Source: Bursaphelenchus xylophilus
Taxonomy: Eukaryota > Nematoda > Chromadorea > Rhabditida > Aphelenchoididae
NCBI GenBank assembly: GCA_904066235.2
Contig: CAJFCV020000001.1
Span: forward strand, 4,340,001 to 4,404,000
Direction: 5' to 3'
Length of the DNA stretch: 64,000 nt
Shown: positions 3,753-51,853 of the stretch, piece after piece
How the letters are laid out: each line of letters opens with the position of its first letter
Numbering within the stretch: the first letter of the stretch is position 1
Translations under genes and position numbers: made by a program
Notes under the pieces: model-generated
Told to the model about the DNA's origin: nothing
What the model saw: only the letters and a program-made list of their open reading frames with translations
The model's database searches: none

Positions 3753-4106
3753 ATGTCTAAGAACGCCTTTGTCCTCGTAATGGATTCCGCCGAGTACCAT
3801 TGCATCAGAAAGGCGGAAATAGATGCCTCTTGTAACAAGAATATGCTGATGCTGATTTCGGCGACTCAAATTATTATTGTCGTCCTTTTGGTAGTCGCTC
3901 TAACCACCGACGTATTCAACTCGGAGAAAGCGCTGGGAAAAAATCGATCCGCCAGACAGGCCGAGGAATTCAAGCCTCCGGCACAACGCAATGTGCGTCC
4001 TTGCGACGAGACCTGCACGAATGGAGGCGATGTTGCGACTTGTTGCAGATCGCACAGGCTGAAAGATGGGGTCTGCAATGATAGCGACAGAGCCATGTGC
4101 TGGTAG
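3753..4106 (+). CDS. type II membrane protein with six-cysteine ectodomain
   Basis: A single open frame of 117 aa. A short N-terminus with scattered charges is followed by a hydrophobic span at about residues 31-52 (MLMLISATQIIIVVLLVVAL) and a polar linker. The C-terminal module has six cysteines: CDETC, TNGGDVATCC, RSHRLKDGVC, and a final C just before the stop. With no cleavable signal peptide and the cysteines after the span, I predict N-in/C-out topology. The spacing C-x3-C-x8-CC-x9-C-x7-C is shared with the genes at 4545, 5552, 10838(-), 11499 and 14044. Its N-terminus differs from the other anchored members and lacks a PPxY-type motif. AATAAA lies at 4129-4134. Its biochemical role is unknown; a defence or extracellular binding role is only a guess from cluster context. 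Confidence 0.75.
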   Translation: MSKNAFVLVMDSAEYHCIRKAEIDASCNKNMLMLISATQIIIVVLLVVALTTDVFNSEKALGKNRSARQAEEFKPPAQRNVRPCDETCTNGGDVATCCRSHRLKDGVCNDSDRAMCW

Positions 4107-4544
4107 AAGCGGTGGCAAACAGACAGCAAATAAATTAAATTAATTATTTACAGTATTTGTTGACGATTTTACTTCTTGAAAGTTTACTTTGAACGGTCGT
4201 TTTCTACGAATAAAAATAGTGTAGTAACATGTGAATTGATTGATAATGATAAATGAATTCAAGAAGTAATTGCAATGAGACTTTTCAACAATCTCTACAA
4301 GCGATTAATAACGGCCCTGCAGAGAGTTAACTCCCTATTAAAAATCAGCACTTTCCACGAATTGATTGGCTTCAAATCCTGCAGAAAGAACCCATTCGGC
4401 AATCAGAAAAACATCAGCATTACTCACGCCGTCACCTTCCTTTTCTCACCCGTTATTTTGCAGGTTACACGCAGTAACCTGACTACTACTTTTTTGATTC
4501 AAAAACTTTCTTACATATAATAGTTAGTTTTGTCCAACAATTTG
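4107..4544 (+). promoter_or_regulatory. intergenic and upstream region of the 4545 gene
   Basis: It carries ATTACTCACGCCGTCACC at 4419-4436, about 115 bases before the next start codon, matching the TTACTCA element of other cluster genes. An 81-codon frame at 4275-4520 shows no motif and overlaps this element; I treat it as non-coding. Confidence 0.35.
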
Positions 4545-5268
4545 ATGTTGAAGCCGGCAAAGCTGTCGTTTATTTTGCAGTCTCAACAGATTTTTAAACC
4601 TCTGCCGTCTTACTCGCCGGTGAACAATTCAAGATCACTGTCTCTGAAGAACAAGAAGTTTCTGTTTTTAATTGTCTCGTTTCTTTTTCTTACAGTCCTT
4701 CTCGTTGTCGGTATAAAATTGGTCCTTTTCCCGAACTAACAAAGAATCCGGAGATAACACTTCCACAATTCGACGTAAGGAGGATTCAGGAGTTAGAGGA
4801 TAATTTTTGAGGTGCCTACGTTGAGATGCGGCCTAGAATTTAAAATTCGCGGCAACGCAGTTGAAAAAAGCTTGCGTCACGGCGGTTTTTGAATTGCACA
4901 ATGCAAAATAATATTATATAATAGCTTCTTGCCTTCAAAGTATAGTTCACATAGCGCTTACTTTATTTTAGAACCACAGTAATGAACGCATAAGTTTTTC
5001 AGCTCAAAAACTCAAGCCAACTCCACCGTCTCTTCAGCGCAACCACGACAAAATTAGCTCTCGTCCACAAACACAGAAACCCAAAAATCTGAAGCCTGTT
5101 GCGGCTTGTGATGCGACTTGCACAAACCGCGGAGATGTCGCAGCTTGTTGTCGCAAATACCGGTGGAAAAACGGGAAGTGTATTGTACAGCGACACAAGA
5201 ACAGACCGACAGAGGTCCGAGCGATTTGTTGGCGCGATAGGACAATGGCTAACAAAGGAGTTCTCTAA
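4545..5268 (+). CDS. two-exon type II membrane protein with six-cysteine ectodomain
   Basis: My model joins exon 1 (4545-4710) to exon 2 (5003-5268) across a 292-bp intron (G|GTATAA...GTTTTTCAG|CT), giving about 143 aa. Exon 1 encodes a Pro-rich tail with LPSYSP (an LPxY variant of the PY motif) and a membrane span (KKFLFLIVSFLFLTVLLVV). Without splicing the frame stops at 4737. Exon 2 is open in exactly the phase needed and encodes CDATC, TNRGDVAACC, RKYRWKNGKC and ..AICW. Its last inter-cysteine loop is longer (14 residues) than in the other members. The GTATAA donor is weak, so the gene could instead be a pseudogene with a stop in the middle. A cDNA would settle it. Confidence 0.55.
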
Positions 5269-5551
5269 CTGTGACGTGTAGATTCTCTTGAAAATATATA
5301 GTAAAAGTAAACATCCATCAATTGACTGATTCATTTCGAACTCTGCAATTAAAACCATTTTTGGAAAACGCAAAATCAATTGTGACAGGTCTGCTTACTC
5401 ATCCTGTTTATTACACTCTCTTCGCGTTACTTTGCACTTCCAAGAAGTATTACTTTCCGATTTTTATTAAGTTCTTGTTGCTTACCCTCTGTTGGGAAGA
5501 ACTGATACCTTTTTTAACCGTTGTTTTCGATCCCGTATTTGCTAAAATCTG
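5269..5551 (+). promoter_or_regulatory. upstream region of the 5552 gene
   Basis: It holds CTTACTCATCC at 5394-5404, about 155 bases before the ATG, and a TTTGCACTTCCAA block near 5431 that recurs upstream of the 6902 gene (near 6802). The two shared blocks suggest common regulation or duplication of the promoter with the gene. Confidence 0.4.
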
Positions 5552-6436
5552 ATGTCAAAGTCCGCGGAAGTGCCGTTTATTGCACGTTCAACACATATTC
5601 CGCCAGCTTTAAGCCCACCGCCGCGTTATTCACCAGGAAAAAACCCACGCTTTCTGTATCTATACAACAGGAAATTTTTGGTCCTGATTTCGCTGCTGTT
5701 ATTCCTAATTGCAATCACACTAATCGTCGGTGTGACGTTGATATGTTTCTCTAGAATTAATGGATCTAAGGAGCTCGATAAATCCAAGTCCGATGTCTCC
5801 AAGGAACGGCCACAACAGCCCAAGCTGGGGGAGCCGTCTGATGAGGACGTTAACACTCCTCACAATTTAAGAGTTCCAGAGAAAAATGATGACGTTAACA
5901 GGCCATTAAGTCAAAGGATGGAGCCTCAGAAGCTGGGGCCGGCAGAATCAGAAAAAGAAGAGAAAACATCACACCAGAGAAATTCTCAAGCGACTACTCC
6001 TCCTCAAGAAGTCGATCGTGCAAATGCGGAAGCGCCACAGGCAACGGAGGAAATGAAAAACCAGGCCGACAAGAGACGGTTGATTCTAAGAGTGGAGCCT
6101 CAAAAGCTGGAAGGGTCGCAGCAACAGAAGAAAGAGGCCACGCGTCCAACTCAGGTTCATCTCTCGGCTCTAGAAGCTACGATTCCACCTCAAGAATCAA
6201 TGTCACAACATGCAAATCCTCTAGAAAAGGCTCAAGAAACAACCAAGCCAGTGAACCAACCACCTGAACGCACGAAGGCCACAGTGAAGCCGTTTATTCC
6301 GCCCCGAGAACGCAATATAATTCCATGTGATGAAACTTGCACTAACGGTGGAGCTGTAGCCACTTGTTGTCGAGCGCATAGAATGAGCGATGGAATCTGC
6401 GACGAAAGCAGTCGAGCCATTTGTTGGAAGGACTAG
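5552..6436 (+). CDS. type II membrane protein with long Glu/Pro/Gln stalk and six-cysteine tip
   Basis: A single-exon frame of 294 aa. Residues 1-30 form the Pro-rich tail (HIPPALSPPPRYSPGKNP) with a PPRY motif at 23-26. Then come the family juxtamembrane NPRFLYLYNRK and a span (KFLVLISLLLFLIAITLIVG, about 41-64). A hydrophilic stalk of about 190 residues rich in E, P, Q and T follows, with a repeated phrase (RMEPQKLGPAES / RVEPQKLEGSQQ). The tip carries CDETC, TNGGAVATCC, RAHRMSDGIC and SRAICWKD. By the positive-inside rule the tail is cytoplasmic and the stalk extracellular. AATAAA is at 6491-6496. Upstream, TTACTCA lies at 5395-5401. Function unknown; the layout suggests a surface-tethered cysteine-rich module. 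Confidence 0.85.
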   Translation: MSKSAEVPFIARSTHIPPALSPPPRYSPGKNPRFLYLYNRKFLVLISLLLFLIAITLIVGVTLICFSRINGSKELDKSKSDVSKERPQQPKLGEPSDEDVNTPHNLRVPEKNDDVNRPLSQRMEPQKLGPAESEKEEKTSHQRNSQATTPPQEVDRANAEAPQATEEMKNQADKRRLILRVEPQKLEGSQQQKKEATRPTQVHLSALEATIPPQESMSQHANPLEKAQETTKPVNQPPERTKATVKPFIPPRERNIIPCDETCTNGGAVATCCRAHRMSDGICDESSRAICWKD

Positions 6437-6704
6437 CGGTCTACAGATTCTTTATGTTTTTTGTCTATCTAACATGAAATTTTCTATGTAAATAAAACAG
6501 TGTATTAATAAAACTTTAAATTGAATTTCTTCAATTACATATACTCTGAATAAAATTGTTTTCCAGATATATATAAACTGTAACATGTACAAAACATTAA
6601 ATAACCAATATTCGCGAAAGAAACAGATCCTCAGCAAATGAAAAATCTATTTACGTCCGTAGGTGTAGCCTTAAACTCTTTTTGTTTTTACCACAAATTG
6701 TGAG
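6437..6704. other. 3-prime region of the 5552 gene
   Basis: AT-rich spacer with AATAAA signals at about 6491 and 6506. I see nothing else. Confidence 0.4.
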
Positions 6705-6780
6705 AAAGAAAACAGTTCCATCAATGGTTTGACGTCGAAAAAAGCTTTTGGTCAAAACGTTGAGAGGGTTACTCATGCAT
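6705..6780 (+). promoter_or_regulatory. conserved promoter block shared with the 8404 gene
   Basis: The order GAAAACAGTTCCAT, GACGTC, (GGTCAAAACG), GAGAGGGTTACTCATGC is repeated in the same order at 8229-8310 upstream of the neighbouring paralogue. GTTACTCATGCAT lies at 6768-6780, 122 bases before the ATG at 6902. The GACGTC core resembles a CRE/bZIP site and TTACTCA resembles an AP-1-type half-site. That reading is inference from short motifs. Confidence 0.55.
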
Positions 6781-6901
6781 CTTACATTTCTTTCTTGATT
6801 TTGCACTTCCAAACGTTACTGCATATTATCTGCAGTCTACCTTTTTGTGGTGCTTTTAGATATTATACCACTTCTGTTCTTGGGGGTATAATCTCCTGAT
6901 A

Positions 6902-8056
6902 ATGAAAGGCGCAAGATCGCCATTTACTCAACCTTCGTCACACGTTCCTCCAAGTCTGGTTCCTACATCGCGCTCAAGCTCATCCTCAACGCCTCCGAGT
7001 GATAAGAGCTCGGGGTCAACACTCTCTATCTGCTCCGATTTACCTCCACCGCCTCCGTATTCGCGGGGCAGGAATCCGAGGTTTTTGTTTCTATACAACA
7101 GAAAGTTTCTGATTTTAATTGCCCTCCTGCTATTTATTATTGCGATTCTACTGGCTGTAAGCCTAGCATTGAGAAATTCGCCGAGTTTTGATGGTCCGCA
7201 GGACAAGCCAATTGTTGAGAAGACCACAGTCCCGTCCTGGCTGGGAACGTCTCAAAAATTTAGAACGCCTGAGCCACGTAATGATGGGCATGCTACAGTA
7301 GCGCAGGAAGCAAGTTCAAGGGCGGAGAGCGCTGGCGCTGAGAGGTCAGGAATATTATCCACGACGCCAACTGCCGGTTCACGGATAGGATCAACGGAGA
7401 GCAGCACCCTTGCCCAAGTCACAGAATCGACGACTATAGCTGCTGGTACAAAGATAGCATCTACAACTACGGTCACTCTACCAGACACAACGACGACGAC
7501 AACCGCCGATCCGATTAAGAATTCCAGGATTCACGCCGCAGTCTCTGAAGCCGAGTCAATGATCAACGCGGCTGCATCGGAGATGGGATACAGGATGCAT
7601 GCTGCTAGCACGGAAATGGCCGTGAAGATGAACGTCATCAGTTCAATGGCGAATACAAAAGCGGCCGGCGAAGAGATTATTTCGCGGATGAAAAGCGCCG
7701 GCAATGAGATGATTTCAACGATGAATGCCGCCGGCGATGAGCTGCGATCGAGGATGGACGCAGCGCTCGAAGAGATGCGAATGACGGCCGTTGGCGACAA
7801 GATGGGATCTGATATGGCCAAGGTCCGCGAAGAAGTGCAGTCCAAATTGAGTGCAATTGGCGCAGAGATCAGATCGCGGATGAACACGGCCGCCGCACAG
7901 GTGAGGCTGCGGATGACCATGGCTGCTGCTACAGCCGCCGAGGACATGAGATTGAGGATGAACAACGCCGGAGAAGAAATAAGAGCAATGTTGAACGCCT
8001 CTGGCGAGGAAATAAGAAGACGAATGATTGAAGCAATGAAAAACATGACACGATAA
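6902..8056 (+). CDS. type II membrane protein with 11-residue amphipathic repeat ectodomain
   Basis: A single-exon frame of 384 aa. The N-terminus (PFTQPSSHVPPSL, Ser-rich, then LPPPPPYSRGRNPRF) carries a PPPY motif and the family juxtamembrane RFLFLYNRK, followed by a span (FLILIALLLFIIAILLAVSL). A Thr/Ser-rich linker (TTTTTTADP) precedes about 180 residues of near-continuous hendecads: SRIHAAVSEAE, SMINAAASEMG, SRMKSAGNEMI, STMNAAGDELR, SRMDAALEEMR, SKLSAIGAEIR, LRMNNAGEEIR, AMLNASGEEIR. It has no six-cysteine module. Eleven-residue helical repeats are known from apolipoproteins, synuclein and LEA proteins, where they bind lipid or form coiled coils; a similar role here is inference. AATAAA is at 8127-8132. 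The long antisense frame through the repeats is a codon-bias artefact. Confidence 0.85.
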   Translation: MKGARSPFTQPSSHVPPSLVPTSRSSSSSTPPSDKSSGSTLSICSDLPPPPPYSRGRNPRFLFLYNRKFLILIALLLFIIAILLAVSLALRNSPSFDGPQDKPIVEKTTVPSWLGTSQKFRTPEPRNDGHATVAQEASSRAESAGAERSGILSTTPTAGSRIGSTESSTLAQVTESTTIAAGTKIASTTTVTLPDTTTTTTADPIKNSRIHAAVSEAESMINAAASEMGYRMHAASTEMAVKMNVISSMANTKAAGEEIISRMKSAGNEMISTMNAAGDELRSRMDAALEEMRMTAVGDKMGSDMAKVREEVQSKLSAIGAEIRSRMNTAAAQVRLRMTMAAATAAEDMRLRMNNAGEEIRAMLNASGEEIRRRMIEAMKNMTR

Positions 8057-8228
8057 TCTGTATGTATTTATATATTGTAACCCAGATGTCCAGGATGTGT
8101 TGATGTTAATGACGATTTAATTTGCCAATAAACAGATCTTTAGAAACGTGAGGCAGAGGATCTTCATCTGAAAGAGAAACCTTAAACTTTCGAATCAACT
8201 CTGAAATTACTCTTTTCTATCAGTACAA

Positions 8229-8310
8229 AAGAAAACAGTTCCATGAATTGCCTGACGTCAAAACGCACAATACCTCTTTGGTAAAAAACAGAGAAAGGTC
8301 ACTCATGCGC
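8229..8310 (+). promoter_or_regulatory. conserved promoter block upstream of the 8404 gene
   Basis: GAAAACAGTTCCAT..CCTGACGTCAAAACG..GGTCACTCATGCGC matches the block at 6705-6780. A full TGACGTCA palindrome sits at 8253-8260. The TTACTCA element is TCACTCAT here. The block lies about 95-175 bases before the start codon. Confidence 0.55.
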
Positions 8311-8403
8311 TTTACGCTCCTTCTTTTGTGTGACAGTTTAACGTATCATTAACCGCGGGTTTCTTTTATTCTAACACTTTTGTTTGAGTATATCTAAATT
8401 ACA

Positions 8404-9426
8404 ATGAAAGTGGCAAGATCACCGTTTACTCTACCTTCGCCACACATCCCACCAGCCTTAACTCCTTCAACGCATCCAAGGTTGCCAGCGCCACCGTCGT
8501 ACGTACAAGACAAAGGCCTGGATTTGAGACCGTCTACCTCTCCAGACTTTCCTCCGCCGCCTCCCTATTCGCGGCGGACGAACCCCAGATTTCTATTTTT
8601 ATACAATAGAAAGTTTCTGATCCTGATTTCCTTTCTGCTTCTTATTATTGCAATTTTATTGGTCGTTCAAGCGTTGAGGAGTTCTCTGGGATCTTACACA
8701 ACTGCCTCACAAAGCCAGACAATGTCTGAGAACACAACAGTCCCTATGAACGCCGCTGGCGAAGCAATGAAAGCTGATATGAACGCAGCATCCGCTCAAA
8801 TTGCCTCAACGATGGACACCGCACATAGAAGTATGTCAAGAAGGATGAACATTGCCTTCGTTATGATGACATCGAAGACGAAAAGAGCCGGCTCAGTGGT
8901 AAGAGCAATAGCCGAGGTCGGAGAGATGAGATCGGCTCTGAACTCGGCCGGATCGGACGTGATTTCAGAGATGAACGCCGCCAGCGACGAGATGATATCT
9001 AAGATGAAGGCTGCGGAATCCAAAATGATTTCAAGCATCAAGTCGACTGAATCCGGGATGGAAGAAATTATGAATTATTATGGCAACGAGATGGCTGCCG
9101 GGATGAATGCTACTGGTACAGAAGTGTTATCAATAATGAATATGATCGGCACAGAAATAGTAATTAGGATGGACATGGCCGCCAAGGAGGTGAAATTAAG
9201 ACTGAAAGATTCAGAGATGGGAGAAATCTTAAAAACCGCCGGTTTAGAGATGGAATCGAAGATACACGATGCCGGCAAGGAGATCAGCTCCAAAATGACC
9301 GCAGCTGGCGCAGAGATGCGATTGAGGATGGTGGCCGTTGGCTCCGATCTGACAAGGAAAGTACTTTTATGGGGGCTCCTACTTTTTGACGGGACATATC
9401 TCAAAAAATCAGAAAAAATGTGCTGA
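8404..9426 (+). CDS. type II membrane protein with hendecad ectodomain; C-terminus supplied by a transposon
   Basis: A single-exon frame of 340 aa, paralogue of the upstream gene. It has tail PFTLPSPHIPPAL, PPPPPYSRRTNPRF with PPPY, RFLFLYNRK, and a span (FLILISFLLLIIAILLVVQ). It lacks the long Thr linker, so the hendecads start soon after the span: STMDTAHRSMS, SALNSAGSDVI, SEMNAASDEMI, SKMKAAESKMI, SKIHDAGKEIS, SKMTAAGAEMR, LRMVAVGSDLT. The frame runs into the terminal inverted repeat at 9350 and ends inside it, so the last 24 or so residues (from KVLLWGLL to EKMC) come from element sequence. No AATAAA of its own is evident before the element. The gene is probably still expressible but may have lost its native end and 3-prime UTR. 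Confidence 0.8.
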   Translation: MKVARSPFTLPSPHIPPALTPSTHPRLPAPPSYVQDKGLDLRPSTSPDFPPPPPYSRRTNPRFLFLYNRKFLILISFLLLIIAILLVVQALRSSLGSYTTASQSQTMSENTTVPMNAAGEAMKADMNAASAQIASTMDTAHRSMSRRMNIAFVMMTSKTKRAGSVVRAIAEVGEMRSALNSAGSDVISEMNAASDEMISKMKAAESKMISSIKSTESGMEEIMNYYGNEMAAGMNATGTEVLSIMNMIGTEIVIRMDMAAKEVKLRLKDSEMGEILKTAGLEMESKIHDAGKEISSKMTAAGAEMRLRMVAVGSDLTRKVLLWGLLLFDGTYLKKSEKMC

Positions 9427-9946
9427 TCAAGGATATATAGATCTTAGCTGCCCATTTTAGGTTTTTAGGGGTGAAAACTCAATCGGAAGTTTACTTAAAG
9501 TCCTATATGAACCCCTTTTCGCTTAATTTTTCACAGGTTTACAATTTTTATTTTGGCTTAAAATGATGTTTATTGAGTTTCTAAGACGTAATAAGACAGT
9601 CTTGGCCCAAAAATTTATTTTTCCGACCTTCAACTTCAAAAAAAGTTGATTCAGCCCAAAAGGGAAATCGAACCTGTGCGGCGTCACCCTCTTGATTCCC
9701 AGATTACGACACTAACCACTCGGCCACACCGCTCTCTTCCGAAGGAAGAGACCGACTGCGCTTTTTATCGCTTCGAATGCCTGCGCCTTTTGTAGGGAAA
9801 TTAAGCCAGTTTTTGGGCATTTTCACCCCTAAAAACCTAAAATGGGCAGCTAAGATTTATATATCCTTGATCAGCGCATTTTTTCTGATTTTTTGAGATA
9901 TGTCCCTTAAAAAAGTAGGAGCCCCCATAAAAGTACTTTCCTTGTC
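9350..9946. mobile_element. 597-bp terminal-inverted-repeat element with an internal tRNA-like block
   Basis: The two ends are near-perfect inverted copies of about 125 bp: TGACAAGGAAAGTACTTTTA..GGGGGCTCC and its inverse, then AAGATATATA..TTTTTAGGGGTGAAAA. The middle holds a tRNA-like sequence on the minus strand (9655-9740) and no transposase. A relative with the same TGACAAGGAAAGTACTT end lies at 13215-13682 but has a different interior. I see no clear target-site duplication. The element joins the coding end of the 8404 gene on its left to an orphan palmitoyltransferase exon on its right. Confidence 0.85.
9655..9740 (-). tRNA. tRNA-like pseudogene (Ser/Leu class) inside the TIR element
   Basis: On the minus strand a near-consensus A box (TGGCCGAGTGG) and a B-box-like GGTTCGATTTCC are spaced as in a tRNA with a long variable arm. 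A T-run (ACTTTTTTTG) follows, which could end Pol III transcription. The anticodon stem and acceptor stem do not pair properly, so I call it a degenerate tRNA-derived sequence rather than a working tRNA. It may have provided an internal Pol III promoter to the element. Confidence 0.55.
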
Positions 9947-10006
9947 AAACTATTTTTACAAAGATTTTACAAAAAAAAAAAATTTTTTTAATTCCAAAAA
10001 CCTTAC

Positions 10007-10173
10007 CGATTTTGAAGAGACGTTCTTGCTCGATAACTTCTTTGTTGGTGGCCCGGGGAATGATTCCGGGGTCCGTGAATGAGGTTTTGAGGAGATTGGC
10101 CATAACCAGGAAGAAAAGGACGGCCGCGCACACCGGTAATGCCAAGGAAACCCGTTCGGCGATGAAAATGGCG
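10007..10173 (-). pseudogene. orphan exon of a DHHC palmitoyltransferase (ZDHHC9/14/18 type)
   Basis: On the minus strand a 167-bp open exon lies between an acceptor (ATCTTTCAG) and a donor (ATCG|GTAAGG). It encodes LALPVCAAVLFFLVMANLL followed by KTSFTDPGIIPRAT, which is the second membrane span and the signature TSFxDPGxxPRA turn of ZDHHC9/14/18-type protein S-acyltransferases. The catalytic DHHC-Cys domain should be encoded further left on this strand, but there the sequence is intron remnant, the TIR element and an unrelated gene. I found no other exon of this gene in the neighbourhood. It is therefore most likely a duplicated fragment. Confidence 0.65.
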
Positions 10174-10563
10174 CTGAAAGATACGGAACTACCAAGCCAG
10201 TGTGTTCCCTTTTCTTCTCACTATGGGATGTGCAATGAAACTTGTTTAAATTGTGACTTTTATCTCATTACGCTTTTTAACATGAAGTTTTAAATAGAGA
10301 TAGCATAATAAATAAATGCATATCATGAATAGATCATTGAACGAGCTCAAAATAGAAATTTGCTTTTAGTCATAAAGAAAAGAAATGAAATGAATAGCAG
10401 CATGAAGCGATAAACACACAACAGTTGGGTATCATTATCAAAATGCCAACCGTGATAATCTACTGGGGAGTTTGCTGAGGTCTGGCGAAGACTTGTCGAG
10501 TGTCTAGTTCGGGGGTTTATTACTGTAAACATTTTTAGCGATGCATATATTTATTTTTATTTA

Positions 10564-10774
10564 TTAGATCGTCCAGAAAGTTCGTGCGTTTTTTTCATTG
10601 CTTTTTTTTACGAGGATTGTTTGTTGTTTGGCAAATGGTATATATTTATTTGATACAGCCAGTCTTGTAGAGGAGAAAAAGCTGTATCAAATAAATATAT
10701 ACCATTTGCCAAAGAACAACAATCCTTGTAAAACAAAGCAATGAAAAAACGAACGAACTTTCTGGACGACCTAA
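10564..10774. mobile_element. 211-bp mariner-type MITE (fold-back)
   Basis: A nearly complete palindrome: TTAGATCGTCCAGAAAGTTC at the left end pairs with GAACTTTCTGGACGACCTAA at the right, flanked by TA on both sides. The inner arms GGCAAATGGTATATATTTAT..GATACAGC also pair, leaving a loop of about 20 bases near 10665. The TTAGRTNGTCC..AAAGTTCGT end and TA target site are typical of mariner relatives. There is no coding capacity. Confidence 0.85.
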
Positions 10775-10837
10775 TAGTTTGAGTGAGCCATAAAAAAAGA
10801 CGAGAAGCGGCTTCACAGAGAGCGATTGTACACATTT

Positions 10838-11050
10838 TTATTCATCAACTAAGGTAGCATTATAATTGAAACATTGTGCAACGCGGTTTTCTGGAACACA
10901 TTTGCCATCCGTACACAACCCATCCTCAAATCCATGTGCCCTACAGCAAGTGGCAACATCACCTCCATTCCAACAAGTCTCATCGCACGGGATTACATTT
11001 TTTCCAAGGGATACAGCGACAATAAGGAGAAAAACAAGGAACACTCTCAT
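10838..11050 (-). CDS. secreted six-cysteine peptide of the CDETC family
   Basis: A 70-aa frame with a clear signal peptide (MRVFLVFLLIVAVSLG) and then the module: CDETC, WNGGDVATCC, RAHGFEDGLC, plus two further cysteines (GKC, AQC) and a short polar tail. It is the same module as in the membrane-anchored neighbours, but without tail or anchor. The module has one extra cysteine, seven in all, so it may dimerise or leave one thiol free. The stop codon overlaps an AATAAA (minus strand, 10836-10841), so the 3-prime UTR must be very short. It is divergent from the 11499 gene across about 450 bp. Function unknown; size and cysteine content resemble host-defence peptides, which is inference. Confidence 0.8.
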   Translation of the reverse strand: MRVFLVFLLIVAVSLGKNVIPCDETCWNGGDVATCCRAHGFEDGLCTDGKCVPENRVAQCFNYNATLVDE

Positions 11051-11498
11051 AATTACAAATTAACAGCGACTGATTCAAGGAAAATCAAAAAGTATTCGAT
11101 TTTTATATTCATATTTTCTGACTTAAAAATCTTGAACCCGGATGCAAAGCCGGACCTTGTTTATCGAAAGAGTCAAGAGGCTTTCGTTGACGGCCAATAT
11201 CGCAAGTTTTTAACGTCATTTGTTGACCTTTAAAAAGCAAATTTGATAAGGAAATGAGACGAATAGCCGCAGAGTGGAGTAAATACTCAAAGCGATATGA
11301 TAGCGCGTGGAATTGATAGGACAATGACTAATCATGTCGTTTTTATGATGGGCTAGGGAAAGCAAAGCTCTTAAATTTCGTTGAAATTCAATGTCAAAAT
11401 GATTTTGTTCCGGTTTTGGTTCCGGTTTAGGGATTTTATAGCAAAATGTTTGGAATATAAAGGCCGCTAAAGCTGAATGAAAACAAGCACCATTTTCA
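11051..11498. promoter_or_regulatory. divergent intergenic region between two secreted-peptide genes
   Basis: It contains GGAGTAAATACTCAAAG near 11274-11290, whose minus-strand reading includes TTACTCC, and an ATATAAAGG TATA-like box near 11455, about 40 bases before the ATG of the plus-strand gene. The two genes may share control elements. Confidence 0.35.
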
Positions 11499-11741
11499 AT
11501 GAAATTTGTTGTCATTTTCCTACTATTCATCGGCCTTGTTGCCTCTTCACCCCTGACCCAGTCAAGGCCACCGGGGGACAAAGATTGCGAGGGCGGAATA
11601 ATGCAGGGCCTTTCTGGAAACAAGGTTTGTTGGGCTTGCACTGAAACCTGCACAAATCGAGGCGATGTTCAAGCCTGCTGTGTTGCTCATGGGTGGAAGG
11701 AGGGGGATTGCGATCAATATCATCATGCCATTTGTACTTAA
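11499..11741 (+). CDS. secreted six-cysteine peptide, divergent member
   Basis: An 80-aa frame with signal peptide MKFVVIFLLFIGLVASS, then a short pro-segment, CEGGIMQGL, and the module CTETC, TNRGDVQACC, VAHGWKEGDC and HAICT at the end. Two additional cysteines precede the module (DCEGG and VCWA), so a fourth disulfide is possible. AATAAA is at 11818-11823. It lies next to the minus-strand secreted paralogue, and the anchored six-cysteine genes lie on both sides. Confidence 0.8.
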   Translation: MKFVVIFLLFIGLVASSPLTQSRPPGDKDCEGGIMQGLSGNKVCWACTETCTNRGDVQACCVAHGWKEGDCDQYHHAICT

Positions 11742-12647
11742 TCTGGTTAACTAATTATTCTGTATTGAAAATTCGGCTGTATCTGCGTATAACATCTGCG
11801 TATAACATATTGTCTTCAATAAACAATAATTGTTTTATTTCTTACTGCACTTGGATCAGCATTCAAGATATTTGGAGTGGAGATAAAAAATGTACTACAT
11901 GTTTTACTTCACATCTTCTAGCATCAGAAGAGGTATGTCTTCTTTGCGACGAAGCAGGCGAAGTCATTGTTTTTTCAGGCTGATTTTTTTGAGGAAAAAA
12001 TGATCAAAATTGTGGTAATATTTTTTATTTTAATTACGCTTGTTACAGAATGAAAAGAAACCCTGAAATACTGTATACACTCATTTTTTTACAAATTAAA
12101 AAAATCAGTCAAAAAATTCGCCTTGGTCCCTTCGCCATACCCATTTTCCAAGGTGCTCTGCTTGCCCAGATGCATTGTTCAAAAGTTATATACACAGTTC
12201 GCCCAAGTGTACTGCTGTGATCCAATCAAGCAAAGCCATGAACTTTACTGCATCGAAGATACATCTGGAAGTCCGACTGTTTTAACGGTTGTTTTAAAAA
12301 TCTAAGGAAGAGCGGAAAGATTAATTGATGACTATTCGCGGAACCGACTGAAAATTTAGCAAAGTGAAGACGCAAGCGGAAAATTTAACTTTTCCTTCAG
12401 CTCACATCACAAGTTTTTTAACTTGCTGTTTTCTTCCGACCTAAGCGAACTGTTTTCTTCGTTCGCTTAATTTCCAACGACGCCAAAACGTTTCACTAAT
12501 TGCCTGAAAATTGGGGTCACATTTACACTCCTTCCGCCTATAAAACCTTGTCGTTACATGCATTACTTGTTATTTAACTTGTAACTATTCTGTTTAAGGA
12601 TTTTGAAGAGGTTTGCAAATAATCTTTTATTTTTGGCTGTACAAAAT
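11742..12647. other. intergenic stretch and upstream region of the 12648 gene
   Basis: I see no supported exon or RNA gene. The last 170 bases hold CGACGCCAAAACG near 12478 and GGGGTCACATTTACACTCCT near 12515, which look like decayed versions of the GACGTC and TTACTCA blocks upstream of the paralogues. Confidence 0.35.
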
Positions 12648-12938
12648 ATGTCTATGAAGAAGCAGCAGCCTCCGTTTACTGTACCTTCATCGCACGCTCC
12701 TCCTGGCTTAAGTCCATATGCAATTTACACTCTTCCCAACTCTCCGCCACTTCCGTATTCGCAAGAAATTGACTTGGAAGCAACAACACACACCTCTCCG
12801 AGGATTCCATCAACAGATCGTGCACAGAAGAAGAAACGCAGATTCCTTTTTCTGTACGATACAAGACTTCGGGTTGGACTGGCGGCTATGATACTTGTGT
12901 TGGCATTTGTGTTCGTCAAGAGTCTAATACTTGAGTAG
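12648..12938 (+). CDS. tail-plus-anchor-only paralogue of the cluster membrane proteins
   Basis: A 96-aa frame starting at the ATG that aligns with the starts of its paralogues (12603 would add 15 unrelated residues and begins with TTG). It has the tail QPPFTVPSSHAPPGLSP, then SPPLPYSQ where others have PPxY, then KKRRFLFLYDTR replacing RFLFLYNRK, one span (VGLAAMILVLAFVFVKSL), and stops two residues later. No stalk, hendecads or cysteines follow, and I find no such sequence before the TIR element at 13215. The nearest AATAAA is at 13172. It may be a truncated copy or a genuine decoy or partner carrying only the intracellular tail. Confidence 0.6.
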   Translation: MSMKKQQPPFTVPSSHAPPGLSPYAIYTLPNSPPLPYSQEIDLEATTHTSPRIPSTDRAQKKKRRFLFLYDTRLRVGLAAMILVLAFVFVKSLILE

Positions 12939-13214
12939 CAACGGAAAGGATCATACTTTTATTACTACATATTATACTAGTATGAATATGTCACAATAGT
13001 GCAATGTGATTCTTCATAGTGAGGATGTTTGGAATGATGAAGCAGGTATATATATACACCCCGCTGCCGAACTGCGGCTAAGGCACGCTGTCTGGCAGGA
13101 ATTGTGGTCTTTGATCAACATATACATATAAGTCTGACGATTATAAAAGAGACAAGGATTATACATAACTCAATAAATGTTGTTATAATAAATCAATTGA
13201 ACCGTCGTTTTTGT

Positions 13215-13682
13215 TGACAAGGAAAGTACTTCTACCGATATGGCGTTACAGGTCAAAACATATATCAAAAAAATCGCAGAATTATGCTGATTCAGAAAAT
13301 GTAAAAATTAGCTGCCTAATTTTAGTTTGTAAGGGGAAAAAAATCCTCAGAAGTTTTCGTACAACACCAGGAAAATGCCTTTTTGAGCACGTTTTTACTA
13401 ATTCTAAAAGCTTTGTTTGGAGCTAAAGTAAACCCTGGCATCTTGACAAGCATTAAAATACCAAATTTGATTAATACTATACCTTAATTACATAGTAGTT
13501 CCAATGCAAAAAAGTGCCATTTGCGTAGTGTTGCGAGAAAAGTTCAGAGGGGTTTTTCACCCTTACAAACCAAGATTAGGCAGCTAATTTTTACATGTTC
13601 TAAATCCGCATAATTCTGCGAATTTTTTGATATATGTCTCGATCTGTAACTCCAATACCCCATAGAACTACTTTCTTTGTGA
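13215..13682. mobile_element. 468-bp terminal-inverted-repeat element, relative of the 9350 element
   Basis: The left end TGACAAGGAAAGTACTTCTA and the right end GAACTACTTTCTTTGTGA are imperfect inverted copies. The arms continue for about 120 bp (ATATATCAAAAAAATCGCAG, AAAATTAGCTGCCTAAT, TTTGTAAGGG). The ends match the 9350-9946 element, but the interior has no tRNA-like block. There is no transposase. Confidence 0.75.
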
Positions 13683-14043
13683 TTTTTTTGTAACAGTGAT
13701 AGCAGTAAGAACGTTCCGTAATTTGCACACTCCTTCTTCGTCAAAAATGCTTATCTCTGCAAAAGTCGAGTTAATAAAAGTGTCAGAAATTGATTCCTGG
13801 CACAGTCCCAACCCTTGTCAGATCAAAATTGATGACTTCATGCAAAACTCTAAAATAAAAACAAAGTTTTATAATGCTGATTCATTTTGCAGCCGTTCCG
13901 AACTTACAACTATCAGAACACGTTATTACTCACATTTACTTTACTTCCGCCCCTTCTGTCTCACGTCCCAGAGTCTTTCCAATTTCCCGATTATCACATC
14001 GCTAACCTGTGTTTCTTGAAGTGCCCGTAAGAATATTTTTTAT
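13683..14043 (+). promoter_or_regulatory. upstream region of the 14044 gene
   Basis: It carries TTATTACTCACATTTACTTT at 13923-13942, about 110 bases before the ATG, in the same arrangement as the TTACTCA motifs of its paralogues. I see no exon. Confidence 0.4.
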
Positions 14044-14622
14044 ATGGATAGCCTGCAAAATTCTACGGCCAAGCCCGCGGAACTACCTCTACTTTATGCT
14101 GCAAGACATGTTCCAGTTGCGCTGACACCTCCTCCTTGCTATTCTCGACATGCGCCTGTAAGGAATCCAAGGTTTTTGTATCTGTACAACAGAAAACTAC
14201 TGATTGTAATTGCCTTGTTTTTATTTATTATATCGGTTTTGTTGGGCGTCGGTCTAACATGTCGCTTCTATCCAAGCGTTTGCGAAGCTGAGAACATCGA
14301 AGGATCCAAGAGCAAATCAGCGGTTAATCCAGGAACTAACAACAGTTCTCCAGCTAAGGGAGAGCTGCTTGGAAGTTCAGAGCCAAGAGGCCGCTATGCT
14401 GGACAGGCGGAGATGGAGCCTCTGATAGACCCAAACGCTAAAGTGCCCCTGCCGACCGAGAAATACGACAAACTACTAACTATGAAGGAAGTGTTGTCTT
14501 GCGCTAGAACCTGTGCTAGCGCAGAGAATCTTAAAAGTTGTTGTCAAGCCCATGGATGGAATGGAGGGGTTTGTATTAGCCACAACGAAGGGTTTCTCCG
14601 CGCGATTTGCACAAATGCGTAA
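14044..14622 (+). CDS. type II membrane protein with divergent six-cysteine tip
   Basis: A single-exon frame of 192 aa. The tail (ELPLLYAARHVPVALTPPPC, then YSRHAPVRNPRF) contains PPCY, a PPxY motif. The juxtamembrane RFLYLYNRK precedes a span (LLIVIALFLFIISVLLGVGL). A stalk of about 90 residues follows, and the tip has CARTC, ASAENLKSCC, QAHGWNGGVC and RAICTNA. The GGDVA part of the signature is replaced by AENLK, so this is the most diverged module. Two more cysteines lie just after the span (TCRF, VCEA). AATAAA is at 14714-14719. It closes the cluster on the right. Confidence 0.85.
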   Translation: MDSLQNSTAKPAELPLLYAARHVPVALTPPPCYSRHAPVRNPRFLYLYNRKLLIVIALFLFIISVLLGVGLTCRFYPSVCEAENIEGSKSKSAVNPGTNNSSPAKGELLGSSEPRGRYAGQAEMEPLIDPNAKVPLPTEKYDKLLTMKEVLSCARTCASAENLKSCCQAHGWNGGVCISHNEGFLRAICTNA

Positions 14623-14921
14623 GCACAAGTCTTCTGGACTGCGTTTTTATGTGTAATTTTTTTATGTATGTGTATATGATATGTTGTGTATTTATAGAGC
14701 TGTACATTCTTCGAATAAACAAAACTTGAATAACTATGTTGCGATGGCAGATTTTCACTTTTTATTCTTAATTTTCGGCCACTGAGACCACTTTTAATTA
14801 GTCGTATCACCGGCGACAAATTTTCATTTTTTTATCGCCTTTTGCTTCCTTCAATCTGACTGCACTTGCACACTTTCAAAATTTCCAAATTCCCTTTCGA
14901 AAGCGAGAAGAAACAATGCGT

Positions 14922-14993
14922 GCGTCTGTGGTGTAATGGTCAGCATGGTTGCCTTCCAAGCAATCGACACGGGTTCGATTCCCGTCAGACGCA
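14922..14993 (+). tRNA. tRNA-Gly (anticodon TCC)
   Basis: A 72-nt gene starting GCGTCTGTGGTGTAATGG. The acceptor stem GCGTCTG pairs with CAGACGC. The anticodon loop is CTTCCAA in a TTGC/GCAA stem, and the T arm is ACGGG-TTCGATT-CCCGT. The discriminator base is A. T-rich sequence follows from about 14998. A second, identical copy lies at 51055-51126. Confidence 0.97.
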
Positions 14994-17810
14994 GAAATTT
15001 ATTTTTTGGTTTTTTTGGATAATGCAATCTTTTTGACTAGTAATTTTGGAAGTTAACATCCTAAAAGCTTTTTTACGGCGTTAGTATATTTACTTTTATT
15101 ACTTCTCTAAACGCAAAATTTGGAGTTTTTGGCGGTTCATGCTGATTTTTTTTGGGTAAAATCCCTTAGGGCATGAACTTCGAAATTCATTCTCTTATGC
15201 GACCATTATAGTCAAACACATTTAACGCCTCAATTTGAAATTAAATCATCAAAAATCCTCAAGTTTTTCACCAAAATTTCCTCAAAACATCCGTATTACA
15301 GACTCGAAAAAATCATGTTCATATGTCCTTTAAGAACCGGATCGAAGATCAAAAAAAGAATGCCGATGAGTGGTGCTGGAGCAAAGCCCCGAAATTCCGC
15401 AGGAACAATAAAAGAAAAGGCGCCGGAAGAGGCTTGGAGATCACTCCTCGGGCCTCTCACTTTCACTCACTATTATACTCGATTAGTCATTTCGAATATA
15501 TTTATTTCGCCCGAGACAAGATCTGGAAACGCTTTTCTCCATTCCGTCTTGAGATCGACTTGACTTCTAGCTCCATTTCCAAACCATTCTTTTTTGATAG
15601 GAATGGCTCAAAATTGATGATTTTAAAATTTTTAACCGGTAATGTAGGCTGTAATATTATGTTTACATGTAGATATAGCAGTAAACATCCATTCTGAACT
15701 TTACTTACTCACTTTCAACCCAATTTTTCAACTTTTTTTAAATACAAGTTGTGATGGATAACATGATTAATATAAGTGTCTCAAACCTTATCTTTCCCTC
15801 TTGTTTTTTGCCGGAAAATGGTAATGTAAGGCCTCGGTATCATAAATTTTCATTTTCGACCAAAGTCAACTTGTCATCATGACCGATTTTCTCAATTTTT
15901 TTGCAAATTTTCGCGACTGTTTCAACGTTTTTGCCCTTTTAACCTCCGAAAAAGTAATTGCAATTTGAGCCCCTAATCACAACTCAAATTGCCGGCCCAT
16001 TCCCGCCTGAGGGCATAAATCGCGAGCACGGAAATTGTCGTTTTGGAAGGGATTAATCGTTTTGACAAGTCCCAATCACAACACCTCCCGATCTCCGGCG
16101 TTCGATCCTCGTTTCTTTTGTTTTAAAAACCGACAAATCTGTTATTTCTTGAGCCCTGAGGGCCTCTTCTCGGCCGCTCTCATAACTCGGCGTTCGGTTG
16201 GCCTCAGAGGTTTGATTCTTTTGACCGATTATAATCGATAAAATACGGGGGAGGCGAAATTTTTGGAAGGGAAAAAAGGCGGTATTTGATGCAAAAGATG
16301 ACGTCATGATTTGAAAATATTTTTATCTTGCGACGCAAATTTTGACTTGTTTTTTTGGTTACGCAGACTGTTTACGTACACATTTTGCGTAAACAAATAG
16401 GAGAATAACGAAATGAGTCTGGAAATATCTAATCCTCAATTTTTAAATAGCCCTTATCTCCGTTTTGTAATGAGGAAGCGATTTGCAGAGAATGTCGCGA
16501 ATTGAAGACACGAGCTTCTGCACAAAATCCATAAAACTCGAGCCTTTTATAGCATACTAGTTCGTCCGGAAACTGGGCTGATTTTTGAGTTTTTGAGGTT
16601 TGCATTGGGCACGAAAAGTCAGGGTGCCAACAACAGCCCAAAAAAGTAATTGCACAGTGCAAATTGAACTTTTGTTTTCTCACAGTGTATGTTGCCAAAA
16701 TGACTTCAGAAAATTTACGGATGAGCTTGCAAACCACGACGTTAGAATCCAGATTTTCGGTGCAAAGATATTACTTTTTCTGTAATCATTGTACTCCACA
16801 GTTCGAGTTTCAGTTGAAAAAATTGTCAAAAATGAAAAAAAATAATAATTTTGAGGCGCAACTCACAATGATTTTTGAACAGCGCCAGCAAAAAATTGAG
16901 CATTCTGCCCTTATTAGCGAAATAAATATATATATCATTATTTTTGCCAAGTCCACCGAAGCCCCAATAAGCTAGATTTATCACTGAAAGTTTACAGTTG
17001 TCGTATTTTACACTATTTTTTCTTTCTTTGGACACTAAATTTCTTTAGAGGAAACTCTGTTTTTGCCCTCTGTTTTAGTGATGTAGGCCCAAAATATTTA
17101 CTTTTCTGACTTACTGGATCTTGCTTACAAACACTTTAATTGTCATACGACGTATTTTACAATCTTTTATCTGTGATTTTCGTATCAACAGGCCATCTCA
17201 GAGCAATTTTATAATATTTTTATATTTTTTAATTTTCTGTTCATTAAATTAATTGTAAATTAATTTAGAAATTCACTGACTAAACGCCCGTTCTTTCCTT
17301 CCGCGGTCATTTGATTCGGAGCTCCAGAAGTGCCTCGCCTTTCCCCTCTCCCCCAACCTTGTGGCCATAAAATTCTTTTTCTGGCCATTCCTTCCTTCAT
17401 CTCCATCTTTGTCCCAACTAAAAAAACTTGTTTACTCATTTTGGCCATAGGCCTTCCGAAAGTGTCGTCCGCCAACTTTTTTACTTTCTCCCTGCGGCGA
17501 AATACGGCCGCTATTATGTAAAGTTAAAGAGAGGAAAAGTAAAGTGGAAACTATAGTAAGATCGGAAGAGGTAGGTAGTAGAAGCAGTAGTCGTAGTAAG
17601 GCTAAATTTGGAAATTATTTAGAAGGCCAGAAAAAAATGAACTTCCAAAAATGGGTTGTAATTACATCCTACTTGTGATTTTTTTTAAAAGTTTTGAGCC
17701 AGATACGAAAAAAAATTACTTATTTTTTATCAAATGCTGTGCAAATTTCGACCTAAAAATCTTGATAATTCTGCCAACGGTGCTAAAAAACTTAAATATT
17801 TCTTACAGGG
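14994..17810. other. intergenic DNA, no supported gene
   Basis: AT-rich with GC-richer islands around 16020-16230 and 17290-17470. The longest frames (124 codons at 15323, about 100 codons near 16430-16970) show no motif, domain or splice support. One GCACAGTGC palindrome lies at 16652 and one CGTATTTTAC at 17151. Confidence 0.45.
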
Positions 17811-50168: not shown

Positions 50169-51853
50169 ATGGCGGAGTCGTATCAGCCGCGCGGTCAATA
50201 TCAGCAAGACTATGAGGATACTTACGAACAAGGACAGCAATCAGAAGGGGCTCAGCGACGACCGCCAAAGAATCGAAAAGAGGTAAGTATTTCATTTTTT
50301 GTGTTGAATTTTAGGTAAACAATGTGGAAAACTTGTCTTTTTTGAGGTCATTTATATTATTTTAGGTAATAACCAAAATTTCTGTGAAGGATTTACCTAA
50401 AAATTTTGAAATTAAATTAATTTATTACCTATAGTATTATTTTACTTCATGTCTAGACCTCTTTAAGTCCTATTTTACAGCCTAATTTACCTTTGAAATC
50501 GAGAAATTGATAGTTTTAGTATTTGACACCTCATCAACCTCAAAATTGCCCCTACAAACTCCCCAGATTTGGCCCATTTATTGCCGATCCGACCCTTGCA
50601 CTCCATAATGTCGAGGCTGAGATTGCTTATATCCATCAAACACATCAACGATTGCCCGAATCTCTTCGAGTTCTTACTGATGGTAAGGATTTTAAAAATT
50701 ACGTAGAAAATGGATTTGATAGGATCTTTTGTAATATTTCGTCATGATTTTCCGCCATTTTATCCCTACGTTTTTATTTTTTAGAGACAAAACGGCTGGC
50801 CTGTAAATGGAATACGGATTGGATTGATTTCAGCGCCGGGAGCCCAGATTACATCCGTTTGGAGCAAAAAGTCTTCTTGCCAGAGCCGAAACGAGGTGTA
50901 AGAGTTTGAAATTTTATTTTATTTGAAGTTTAGGATATCCTCTGCAATTTTTTTGTTTGATTTTTGCCGAATTTTGACAAGAAAATGCAAGTTTACGCCC
51001 GCAGCGTGCGCTTCCCGCCAAAGCGTTCGCAAAAAGAAAAGGGAAAGGGAGCGTGCGTCTGTGGTGTAATGGTCAGCATGGTTGCCTTCCAAGCAATCGA
51101 CACGGGTTCGATTCCCGTCAGACGCAGAGGGATTTTTTCCGTTTTCTTTTGGATTTTTATATTGAAAATGGCTAAATAATTGCATCCAGGGTTTAAATTC
51201 TTAATTTTAGACATTATTTTAGTATCAAAATTTAATTTTTGCCAAAATTTCCGAATTTTTTCTAATAATTCCATTTTTAGGAGAATGTTGTTGGCCGCCT
51301 GCTTGGGAAACGCGGTCAAACCCTCCGCGCGATTACTCAAAAGTACAAATGCAAAATTCAAATTTGTGGAAAAGGCTCTAAAGGTGGTGTTGGTGTCGAA
51401 AAAGGCGCCGGAAGCAGAGATTCCCCTTACAATGCACCTCTTCATTGCGTAATTTTGATGGAAGGAGACCCCACAGAAGTCTACCATCGAATGGCCGATA
51501 TTCTCAGGTTAATATTTCAGATCTGCACTATGGTAAGAAAAATTTTAAAAAAAATTTATAGCGACATTAGCTAAAATTTATATTTATTTTGATGATTTCA
51601 GACTGAATCTTTCGAATTCGAAGGCCTTCCCATAGATTTGTATGTAAATAAATTTGACCAAAAAAATGAGAGTGACCAACAAGGAAATAATGATGGTTCT
51701 GAACGAAAGAGAAAGTTTGAAGACGACCAAAATGATAATCAACATAATGGAGTAAGTTTTGTCGCACAAAATATATCTCAAAATCTTTAGCGCTCCCGAT
51801 TTGACAGCCCAAGCTCCCAAAATCAAAATAACAGCGAAGAAAATGAAGGATAA
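50169..51853 (+). CDS. STAR-like KH-domain RNA-binding protein
   Basis: Exons 50169-50282, 50520-50682, 50785-50897, 51281-51532, 51602-51751 and 51791-51853 join in phase to give 284 aa. The N-terminus is rich in Q, Y and E. Residues 40-118 contain YKLPRFGPF and a helical segment. A single KH domain runs from about 119 (EQKVFLPEPKRG) through VGRLLGKRGQTLRAI, whose G-K-R-G loop (139-142) contacts RNA, to KYKCKIQICGKGSKGG and MADILRLIFQ at about 215. The VGRLLGxRGxTxxxI and GKGSxxG phrases are those of the STAR family (GLD-1, QKI, Sam68), which control splicing, stability or translation of mRNAs. The tail has a basic KRKRKFED-like stretch that may be nuclear-localising. In exon 4 the apparent inner intron (51508-51520) is only 13 bp, so I read through it. 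A tRNA-Gly lies in intron 3. Confidence 0.8.
51055..51126 (+). tRNA. tRNA-Gly (anticodon TCC), within an intron of the KH gene
   Basis: It is identical over all 72 nt to the tRNA at 14922-14993: same acceptor stem (GCGTCTG/CAGACGC), anticodon loop CTTCCAA and T arm. It lies inside the intron 50898-51280, in the same orientation as the host gene. A TTTTTT run follows at about 51134, suitable as a Pol III terminator. Confidence 0.97.

Follow-up and report, generated by a model that had tools for sequence, protein, structure and literature searches.

Results

Genes at the locus

We analysed a 64,000-nucleotide stretch of the genome of the nematode Bursaphelenchus xylophilus (assembly GCA_904066235.2, contig CAJFCV020000001.1, forward-strand positions 4,340,001 to 4,404,000; hereafter the window), in which nine genes between positions 3,753 and 14,622 encode predicted membrane-anchored or secreted proteins. 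Six of them, together with one distant gene on the same contig, have in common a proline-rich N-terminal tail, a basic juxtamembrane segment and one membrane span; six window genes and the same distant gene carry a small six-cysteine module which, judged by sequence comparison, is a divergent diapausin. Genes are named by their first position in the window, with a trailing minus sign for the reverse strand; C1, C5 and C6 label contigs of the 78,253,340-base assembly searched, and the window lies on C1. GH45 cellulases, a hallmark of Bursaphelenchus, are encoded in this assembly (17 exon matches). Genome searches were run exon by exon, and their counts are lower bounds.

3753..4106, + strand: diapausin-like module (3990-4103) after a different hydrophobic span (3846-3902); no PPxY
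4545..5268, + strand: anchor gene in two exons; 4545-4710 encodes the tail (LPSY) and the span, 4711-5002 is a predicted intron, and 5003-5268 includes the module (5107-5232)
5552..6436, + strand: PPxY-tailed predicted type II protein, 294 residues; PPRY; span 5678-5734; ectodomain of a 191-residue P/Q/E/K-rich stalk and C-terminal diapausin-like module (6314-6433)
6902..8056, + strand: PPxY-tailed predicted type II protein, 384 residues; span 7109-7165; ectodomain of an S/T-rich linker and an 11-residue amphipathic helical repeat array (7517-8053)
8404..9426, + strand: PPxY-tailed predicted type II protein, 340-residue frame; PPSY and PPPY; span 8614-8670; ectodomain an 11-residue repeat array (about 8722-9348), the final ~25 codons from an inserted element
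9350..9947, no strand: inserted inverted-repeat element, 128-nucleotide arms 9350-9477 and 9820-9947, breaking the 3' end of 8404
10838..11050, - strand: secreted diapausin-like precursor, 70 residues; module 10871-10987 with an extra cysteine in the last loop
11499..11741, + strand: secreted diapausin-like precursor, 80 residues; module 11637-11735, the weakest against the protein P0008
12648..12938, + strand: degenerate anchor gene; proline-rich tail without PPxY, RRFLFLYDTR juxtamembrane segment, span 12873-12929; frame stops directly after the span, without ectodomain
14044..14622, + strand: PPxY-tailed predicted type II protein, 192 residues; PPCY; span 14197-14253; ectodomain of a 75-residue stalk and diapausin-like module (14500-14610)
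C1:3886659-3887144, - strand: seventh anchor gene, 179 residues; tail, PPPY, NPRFLYLYNRK, span, stalk and module

An initial annotation of the window had proposed open frames at 3753, 5552, 6902, 8404, 11499, 12648 and 14044, all of which are present, and a gene at 10838-, which encodes the 70-residue precursor listed above. With coordinates checked on the sequence, 5552, 6902, 8404, 12648 and 14044 each consist of one open frame; 4545, by predicted splicing, needs one intron (GT...AG with a tttttcag acceptor), the only one predicted in the family, which sits directly after the span and separates anchor from ectodomain. Both 10838- and 11499 open with a hydrophobic signal-like leader (signal peptides were judged by eye), and the earlier placement of the module on another anchor in 3753 and as a free secreted peptide in these two genes holds. 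The motif AATAAA lies 22-91 nucleotides past the stop in five of the nine window genes (22 in 3753, 54 in 5552, 91 in 14044) and at 190 and 233 nucleotides in two, a count made without a shuffle control; it was not found within 400 nucleotides of the stop in 4545 and 8404. The seventh anchor gene is ~460 kb from the window family, and the anchor match between the two C1 loci has an E value of 1.2e-16; when the whole proteins of 5552, 6902 and 14044 were searched against the genome, no further anchor came up.

The cysteine module is diapausin-like

Diapausins are free antifungal peptides of beetles and some soil nematodes. Our module alignment (A1) contains 11 of the 12 intact modules found in the genome, the second C5 copy being omitted. 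All 11 follow the pattern C-x3-C-x8-CC-x9-C-x(7-15)-C, in which G invariably precedes Cys5 and A stands near Cys6; the last loop is x7 in seven and x11-15 in four, and the segments used for two (10838- and 11499) contain a seventh cysteine.

Three kinds of comparison, namely profile search, profile alignment and shuffles with cysteines held fixed, tie this module to the diapausin family PF08036 and identify it, as far as sequence can, as a divergent diapausin. First, among 5.8 billion proteins, the profile A3 reaches eight at E<=1: three from B. xylophilus, two from B. okinawaensis, one each from Aphelenchoides avenae and Panagrolaimus davidi, and P0008, which was found at E 8.6e-6 and carries PF08036 above the cut-off (30.4 bits). 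Second, hhalign gives 97.2% with P0008 and 93.6% with blapstin, a peptide published from a beetle. Third, 10 of the 11 modules are matched against P0008 by at most 5 of 1000 cysteine-fixed shuffles, and nine of the 11 against blapstin by at most 7 of 1000. An AlphaFold2 (AF2) model built from the six window modules (predicted local distance difference test, pLDDT, 83.4) has a defensin-like fold; the solved diapausin 2e2f is among its tied best chains and has the highest listed sequence identity (34%), and a Foldseek search with this model gave no significant match (best E 0.62). The single-sequence AF2 model of the 10838- precursor reached a pLDDT of 60.8, with a best Foldseek E value of 1.0 and no diapausin listed.

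A number of observations weigh against this assignment. No scanned Bursaphelenchus member reaches the Pfam cut-off for PF08036: the best match, 10838-, scores 15.4 bits (E 0.019) against a curated cut-off of 25 bits, 14044 matches at E 0.38 in the Pfam scan, four of the nine members of A3 match at E<=10, and a scan of the genome with PF08036 gave nothing at E<=1. In a sequence search of the PDB, 2e2f (E 8.9) came no higher than fifth, after unrelated chains (E 0.04 and 0.99) and two plant defensins (E 1.2 and 1.3); on Z, 2e2f shares its place with plant defensins and drosomycin, and weak matches occur to Defensin in two of the nine A3 members and to Gamma-thionin likewise in two of nine. Two modules, 4545 (131/1000) and 11499 (90/1000), do not beat shuffles against blapstin, and the P0008 test is not fully independent because the profile itself picked P0008. 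Lastly, the Cys2-Cys3 loop is x8 in all 11 modules, one residue shorter than in the published spacings consulted (x9 or more). The collembolan diapausin spacing is given as C-x3-C-x9-14-CC-x9-11-C-x6-9-C (PMC10051947); x3, CC and x9 fit this range in 11 of 11 modules, Cys2-Cys3 falls outside it by one, and the last loop fits in the seven with x7 and not in the four with x11-15, and we therefore file the module as diapausin-like rather than as a strict member.

Other identities were set aside. The Conotoxin match (PF02950, E 0.017 on 3753) and those to defensins or gamma-thionins are below cut-off and lack support from the profile link, and the diapausin-like character of the module rules out an ectodomain of unknown family. 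The initial annotation knew of no named family with this combination. The cysteine module, being diapausin-like, is not of unknown family; for the anchor, neither Pfam at its cut-off nor the protein database, searched among length-compatible annotated proteins, returned a relative.

A shared anchor with a PPxY tail

The initial annotation had assigned all the shared motifs to each of the six window genes. Tail and span do occur in all six; the NPRFL[FY]LYNRK core and PPxY are confined to four (5552, 6902, 8404 and 14044). When the distant gene is included, PPxY is exact in five of seven anchors, with LPxY in 4545 and neither in 12648, and the juxtamembrane core is intact in five of seven, having diverged in 4545 and 12648. 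The best 19-residue segment has a mean hydropathy above 2.5 in all seven anchors. Flank charges run from +4 to +6 on the N-terminal side and from -1 to +3 on the C-terminal side, and because the N-side flank is the more positive we predict an N-in, type II orientation, in agreement with the topology first proposed. The flanks of the 3753 span (+1/+1) do not decide its orientation.

None of the anchored proteins reaches the cut-off of any Pfam family, and the 5.8-billion-protein database yielded no relative of the anchor, either with whole 5552 (1017 candidates) or with alignment A4 (7996 best candidates), searches that reach only length-compatible, annotated proteins and do not imply absence elsewhere. 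The anchor family is small and apparently lineage-specific. On these sequence features, family assignment and predicted topology are well supported, and much surer than function.

A candidate promoter element, TTACTCA, lies within 400 nucleotides upstream of five of the seven anchor genes (-117 to -156). We set it aside because 107 of 200 shuffles produced a 7-mer common to at least five upstream regions and the sharing is accounted for by common descent.

Helical repeat arrays and an inserted element

The ectodomains of 6902 and 8404 are periodic at 11 residues (z 9.7 and 10.4 against 300 shuffles) and 37% identical over 176 residues, with NG86 values of 0.57 for nonsynonymous divergence (dN), 2.55 for synonymous divergence (dS) and 0.22 for dN/dS. 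The 6902 array matches the apolipoprotein domain PF01442 at E 3.4e-11 (43.6 bits, below the cut-off of 90) and apoA-IV in the PDB at E 2.2e-6; the 8404 array matches the domain weakly (E 0.0024, 18.0 bits) and no apolipoprotein in the PDB at E<=1. The natural reading of these sequences is an 11-residue amphipathic helix that would bind lipid or form a right-handed coiled coil, and the likeness to apolipoproteins possibly reflects convergence on an 11-mer helix.

The arms of the element in the 3' end of 8404 are 97% identical, and an arm has 40 scored genome matches at 98-100% identity among 809 candidates, a count in which two arms of one element may both figure. Because the 8404 frame ends inside an element with many such copies, its true end was altered recently. 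A second inverted-repeat element, with 144-nucleotide arms at 83% identity, occupies 13241-13654, between 12648 and 14044.

Carriers of the module

We count 12 intact modules, of which five lie behind membrane spans (four on the anchor described here and one, in 3753, on another) and seven are secreted. Those in the window belong to 3753, 4545, 5552, 10838-, 11499 and 14044; another is in the C1:3886.7k gene, and the five secreted copies outside the window comprise three on C6:744-749k and two on C5. The C5 locus (923654-927170) contains two inverted copies of a secreted gene (P0004) at 923.6-925.7k and a broken fragment at 927.1k. A partial thaumatin-like protein of Aphelenchoides avenae (P0005) ends in a diapausin-like module on a Pro/Ser linker; at the B. 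xylophilus thaumatin matches at C6:8.575 Mb, no module match is listed beside them. As read from the sequences, the module thus has four kinds of carrier: a secreted precursor, the PPxY-type anchor, a second span (3753) and a thaumatin-like protein.

A survey of 109 nematode species that included B. xylophilus, with 61 genes for antimicrobial peptides, restricts diapausins to the free-living clade 9/V and Acrobeloides and reports none in plant-parasitic nematodes (PMC10506718). The B. xylophilus module genes are a counter-example to that absence as there stated; their divergent spacing and scores below the Pfam cut-off suggest why the survey missed them. Elsewhere, a diapausin domain is mentioned in Panagrolaimus (PMC6889759), which fits P0007. 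Open-licence literature, searched at the level of titles and abstract starts, yielded neither a membrane-anchored diapausin nor one from Bursaphelenchus.

Rates of change and history

Four genes (4545, 5552, 14044 and the C1 copy) have both anchor and module, which gives six pairs. Identity over aligned residues in these pairs is 39-61% for the anchor, 33-53% for the module and 17-40% for the stalk; the anchor is the better conserved of anchor and module in four pairs and the module in one, while in one pair the two are equal. Conservation therefore runs as a gradient from tail to module to stalk. A reading of equal conservation, based on earlier between-locus figures (53-65% for five of seven anchors, 53-71% for six of 12 modules), was dropped because that comparison omitted the most divergent copies. 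The contrast drawn in the initial annotation, strict conservation inside the cell and rapid change outside, consequently needs qualification: the inside is not strictly conserved, and the faster change outside holds for the module in four of six pairs and above all for the stalk.

NG86 estimates of dN/dS were 0.09-0.26 in seven of 10 anchor pairs (five anchors) and 0.17-0.41 in nine of 15 module pairs (six modules), the remaining pairs having no usable dS; this evidence is weak because most dS values are near saturation. Within the C6 copies, leader and propiece are less constrained than the module in two of three pairs (NG86 0.81 and 0.53 vs 0.21 and 0.41), the third giving 0.18 vs 0.23.

On a seven-row anchor tree, 4545, 5552, 14044 and the distant C1 copy group together (80/90), apart from 6902, 8404 and 12648, with 6902 next (83/90). 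Support is weak: no branch is starred, two of the four inner ones are open, and those leading to 12648 and 4545 are long. Because the four module genes are united, one switch between module and repeat array suffices. The modular architecture proposed earlier is upheld, as is tandem duplication in which one anchor came to bear different ectodomains; repeated domain exchange is not needed given this tree, even though 80/90 is not a strong fork. A 17-row module tree, with 13 of its 14 inner branches open, is silent on the origin or transfer of the module.

Neighbouring sequence

An open exon-like frame at 10002-10187 on the reverse strand has a 97% identical copy at C1:4324873-4325055(+), ~25 kb away; it has no Pfam match, presumably resembles the N-terminal part of a DHHC palmitoyltransferase, and looks from its sequence like a recently duplicated gene fragment. 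A near-perfect long palindrome at 10562-10776, with nested inverted arms of 33, 32 and 39 nucleotides (94-97%), is probably a small transposable element. Genes for tRNA-Gly(TCC) lie at 14921-14994, ~300 nucleotides downstream of the 14044 gene, and at 51054-51127. The segment 46168-48628 contains a frame for a SET domain that ends in a PHD-like part (just under the Pfam cut-off) and, after it, a BAH frame, which together read as a histone methyltransferase gene, one that we take to be ASH1-like.

Discussion

Proposed function and alternatives

B. xylophilus feeds on fungi and is carried by beetles, and PPxY and LPxY motifs bind the WW domains of NEDD4-type ubiquitin ligases. Taking these together with the predicted architecture, the best fit, to which we give a probability of about 0.5, is a surface-displayed or shed defence peptide whose traffic would be controlled by such ligases. 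The diapausin-like module would form the outer, C-terminal end of a protein held by a single-span anchor, and on the epithelia of this fungus-feeding, beetle-carried worm the anchored forms would display the peptide or free it by proteolysis. Its activity might be antifungal or of ion-channel type, as reported for free diapausins. On the inside, the PPxY tail may bind WW domains, so that NEDD4-type ligases would set surface residence, endocytosis or vesicle sorting; a common internal partner, as the initial annotation had suggested, is plausible through this predicted binding. The 6902/8404 branch would have lost the module by replacement or never had it, its helical rod perhaps binding lipid or oligomerising, and evolutionary change in the family would amount to a change of carrier for one small module.

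Reports on free diapausins describe antifungal activity and action by Ca-channel block (PMC10269622, PMC3175473). In Pristionchus, five of eight diapausin genes respond to grub carcasses, about 4- to 8200-fold (PMC11180206), and at least two diapausins are thought to protect hibernating stages (PMC3443458).

Several findings speak against a displayed or shed defence peptide. Ten of the 11 modules are acidic to neutral (isoelectric point 4.3-6.9), on which account a membrane-lysing peptide is disfavoured; basic residues before the module are not conserved; 12648 has neither PPxY nor any ectodomain; and YN00 gives higher dN/dS than NG86 (modules 0.13-0.66 in seven of 15 pairs, anchors 0.41 in one of 10).

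We also entertain, tentatively, a diapausin that is permanently tethered under the control of ubiquitin-ligase traffic and serves as a coat or a cell-autonomous channel modulator, the anchor also displaying an apolipoprotein-like rod. It seems rather unlikely that the anchored proteins are simply precursors, storage or routing forms that invariably give up the mature peptide by cleavage. A common start (x-V/I-x-P-C) is indeed seen in several modules of both the secreted and the anchored kind, and basic residues stand just before the module in 5552 (RER-N), 3753 (QR-N) and C6c (RR-V), but 14044 and 4545 have no such site there, and stalk lengths vary from 31 to 191 residues.

Lynx-type tethered modulators offer a comparison for another reading, that the anchored module acts cell-autonomously on channels or receptors of the worm itself and not on microbes. 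A tether without conserved cleavage sites suits a target on the same membrane, the predominantly acidic to neutral modules fit as well, and Ca-channel block is described for diapausins (PMC3175473); we nevertheless consider this reading unlikely, as the reported activities of relatives are mostly antifungal and seven secreted copies coexist with the anchored ones. Lastly, we doubt that these genes are decaying, lineage-restricted duplicates with little present function, relics of one anchored gene, for while 12648 lacks ectodomain and PPxY, the end of 8404 is overrun by an inserted element and the protein database returned no annotated protein for these window genes, six anchor frames run to 143-384 residues, AATAAA follows the stop closely in five of the nine genes, and the low NG86 dN/dS of anchors, modules and arrays tells against decay, if weakly with dS near saturation.

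Comparison with known systems

Each part of the family can be set beside a described system. The 6902 array is similar to exchangeable apolipoproteins in its 11-residue amphipathic helical repeats and unlike them in being membrane-anchored and under the PF01442 cut-off, with 8404 only weakly matching. For the anchor, the comparison is with NDFIP and similar membrane adaptors that carry PPxY and serve NEDD4-type ligases: the predicted short cytosolic tail with PPxY beside a span is alike, whereas no sequence relation was found and topology and ectodomains differ. As for CS-alpha-beta defensins (plant defensins, drosomycin), the profile link of the module goes to diapausins instead, and the published insect-defensin cysteine pairing differs from the diapausin pairing C1-C3, C2-C5, C4-C6 (PMC10269622).

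With diapausins (2e2f, which is Gastrophysa DSP, blapstin and those of Pristionchus) the module has in common six cysteines, adjacent Cys3-Cys4, a CCRAHG-like core, a P-C-D start in many copies, a length of about 38-41 residues, a signal-like leader on the secreted forms and a predicted defensin-like fold. It departs from them in its x8 Cys2-Cys3 loop, its scores below the Pfam cut-off, the longer last loop in four of 11 copies and the placement of five of the 12 B. xylophilus copies behind a membrane span, for which our literature search returned no parallel. Should the anchored forms be displayed, this would be an invertebrate defence peptide tethered to the membrane; the open-licence titles and abstracts searched described no such case. 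The arrangement is thus undescribed as far as searched, although the peptide family behind it is known. With these genes the pinewood nematode joins the species that have diapausin-like peptides, and its link with beetles bears on the debated transfer of diapausins from insects to nematodes.

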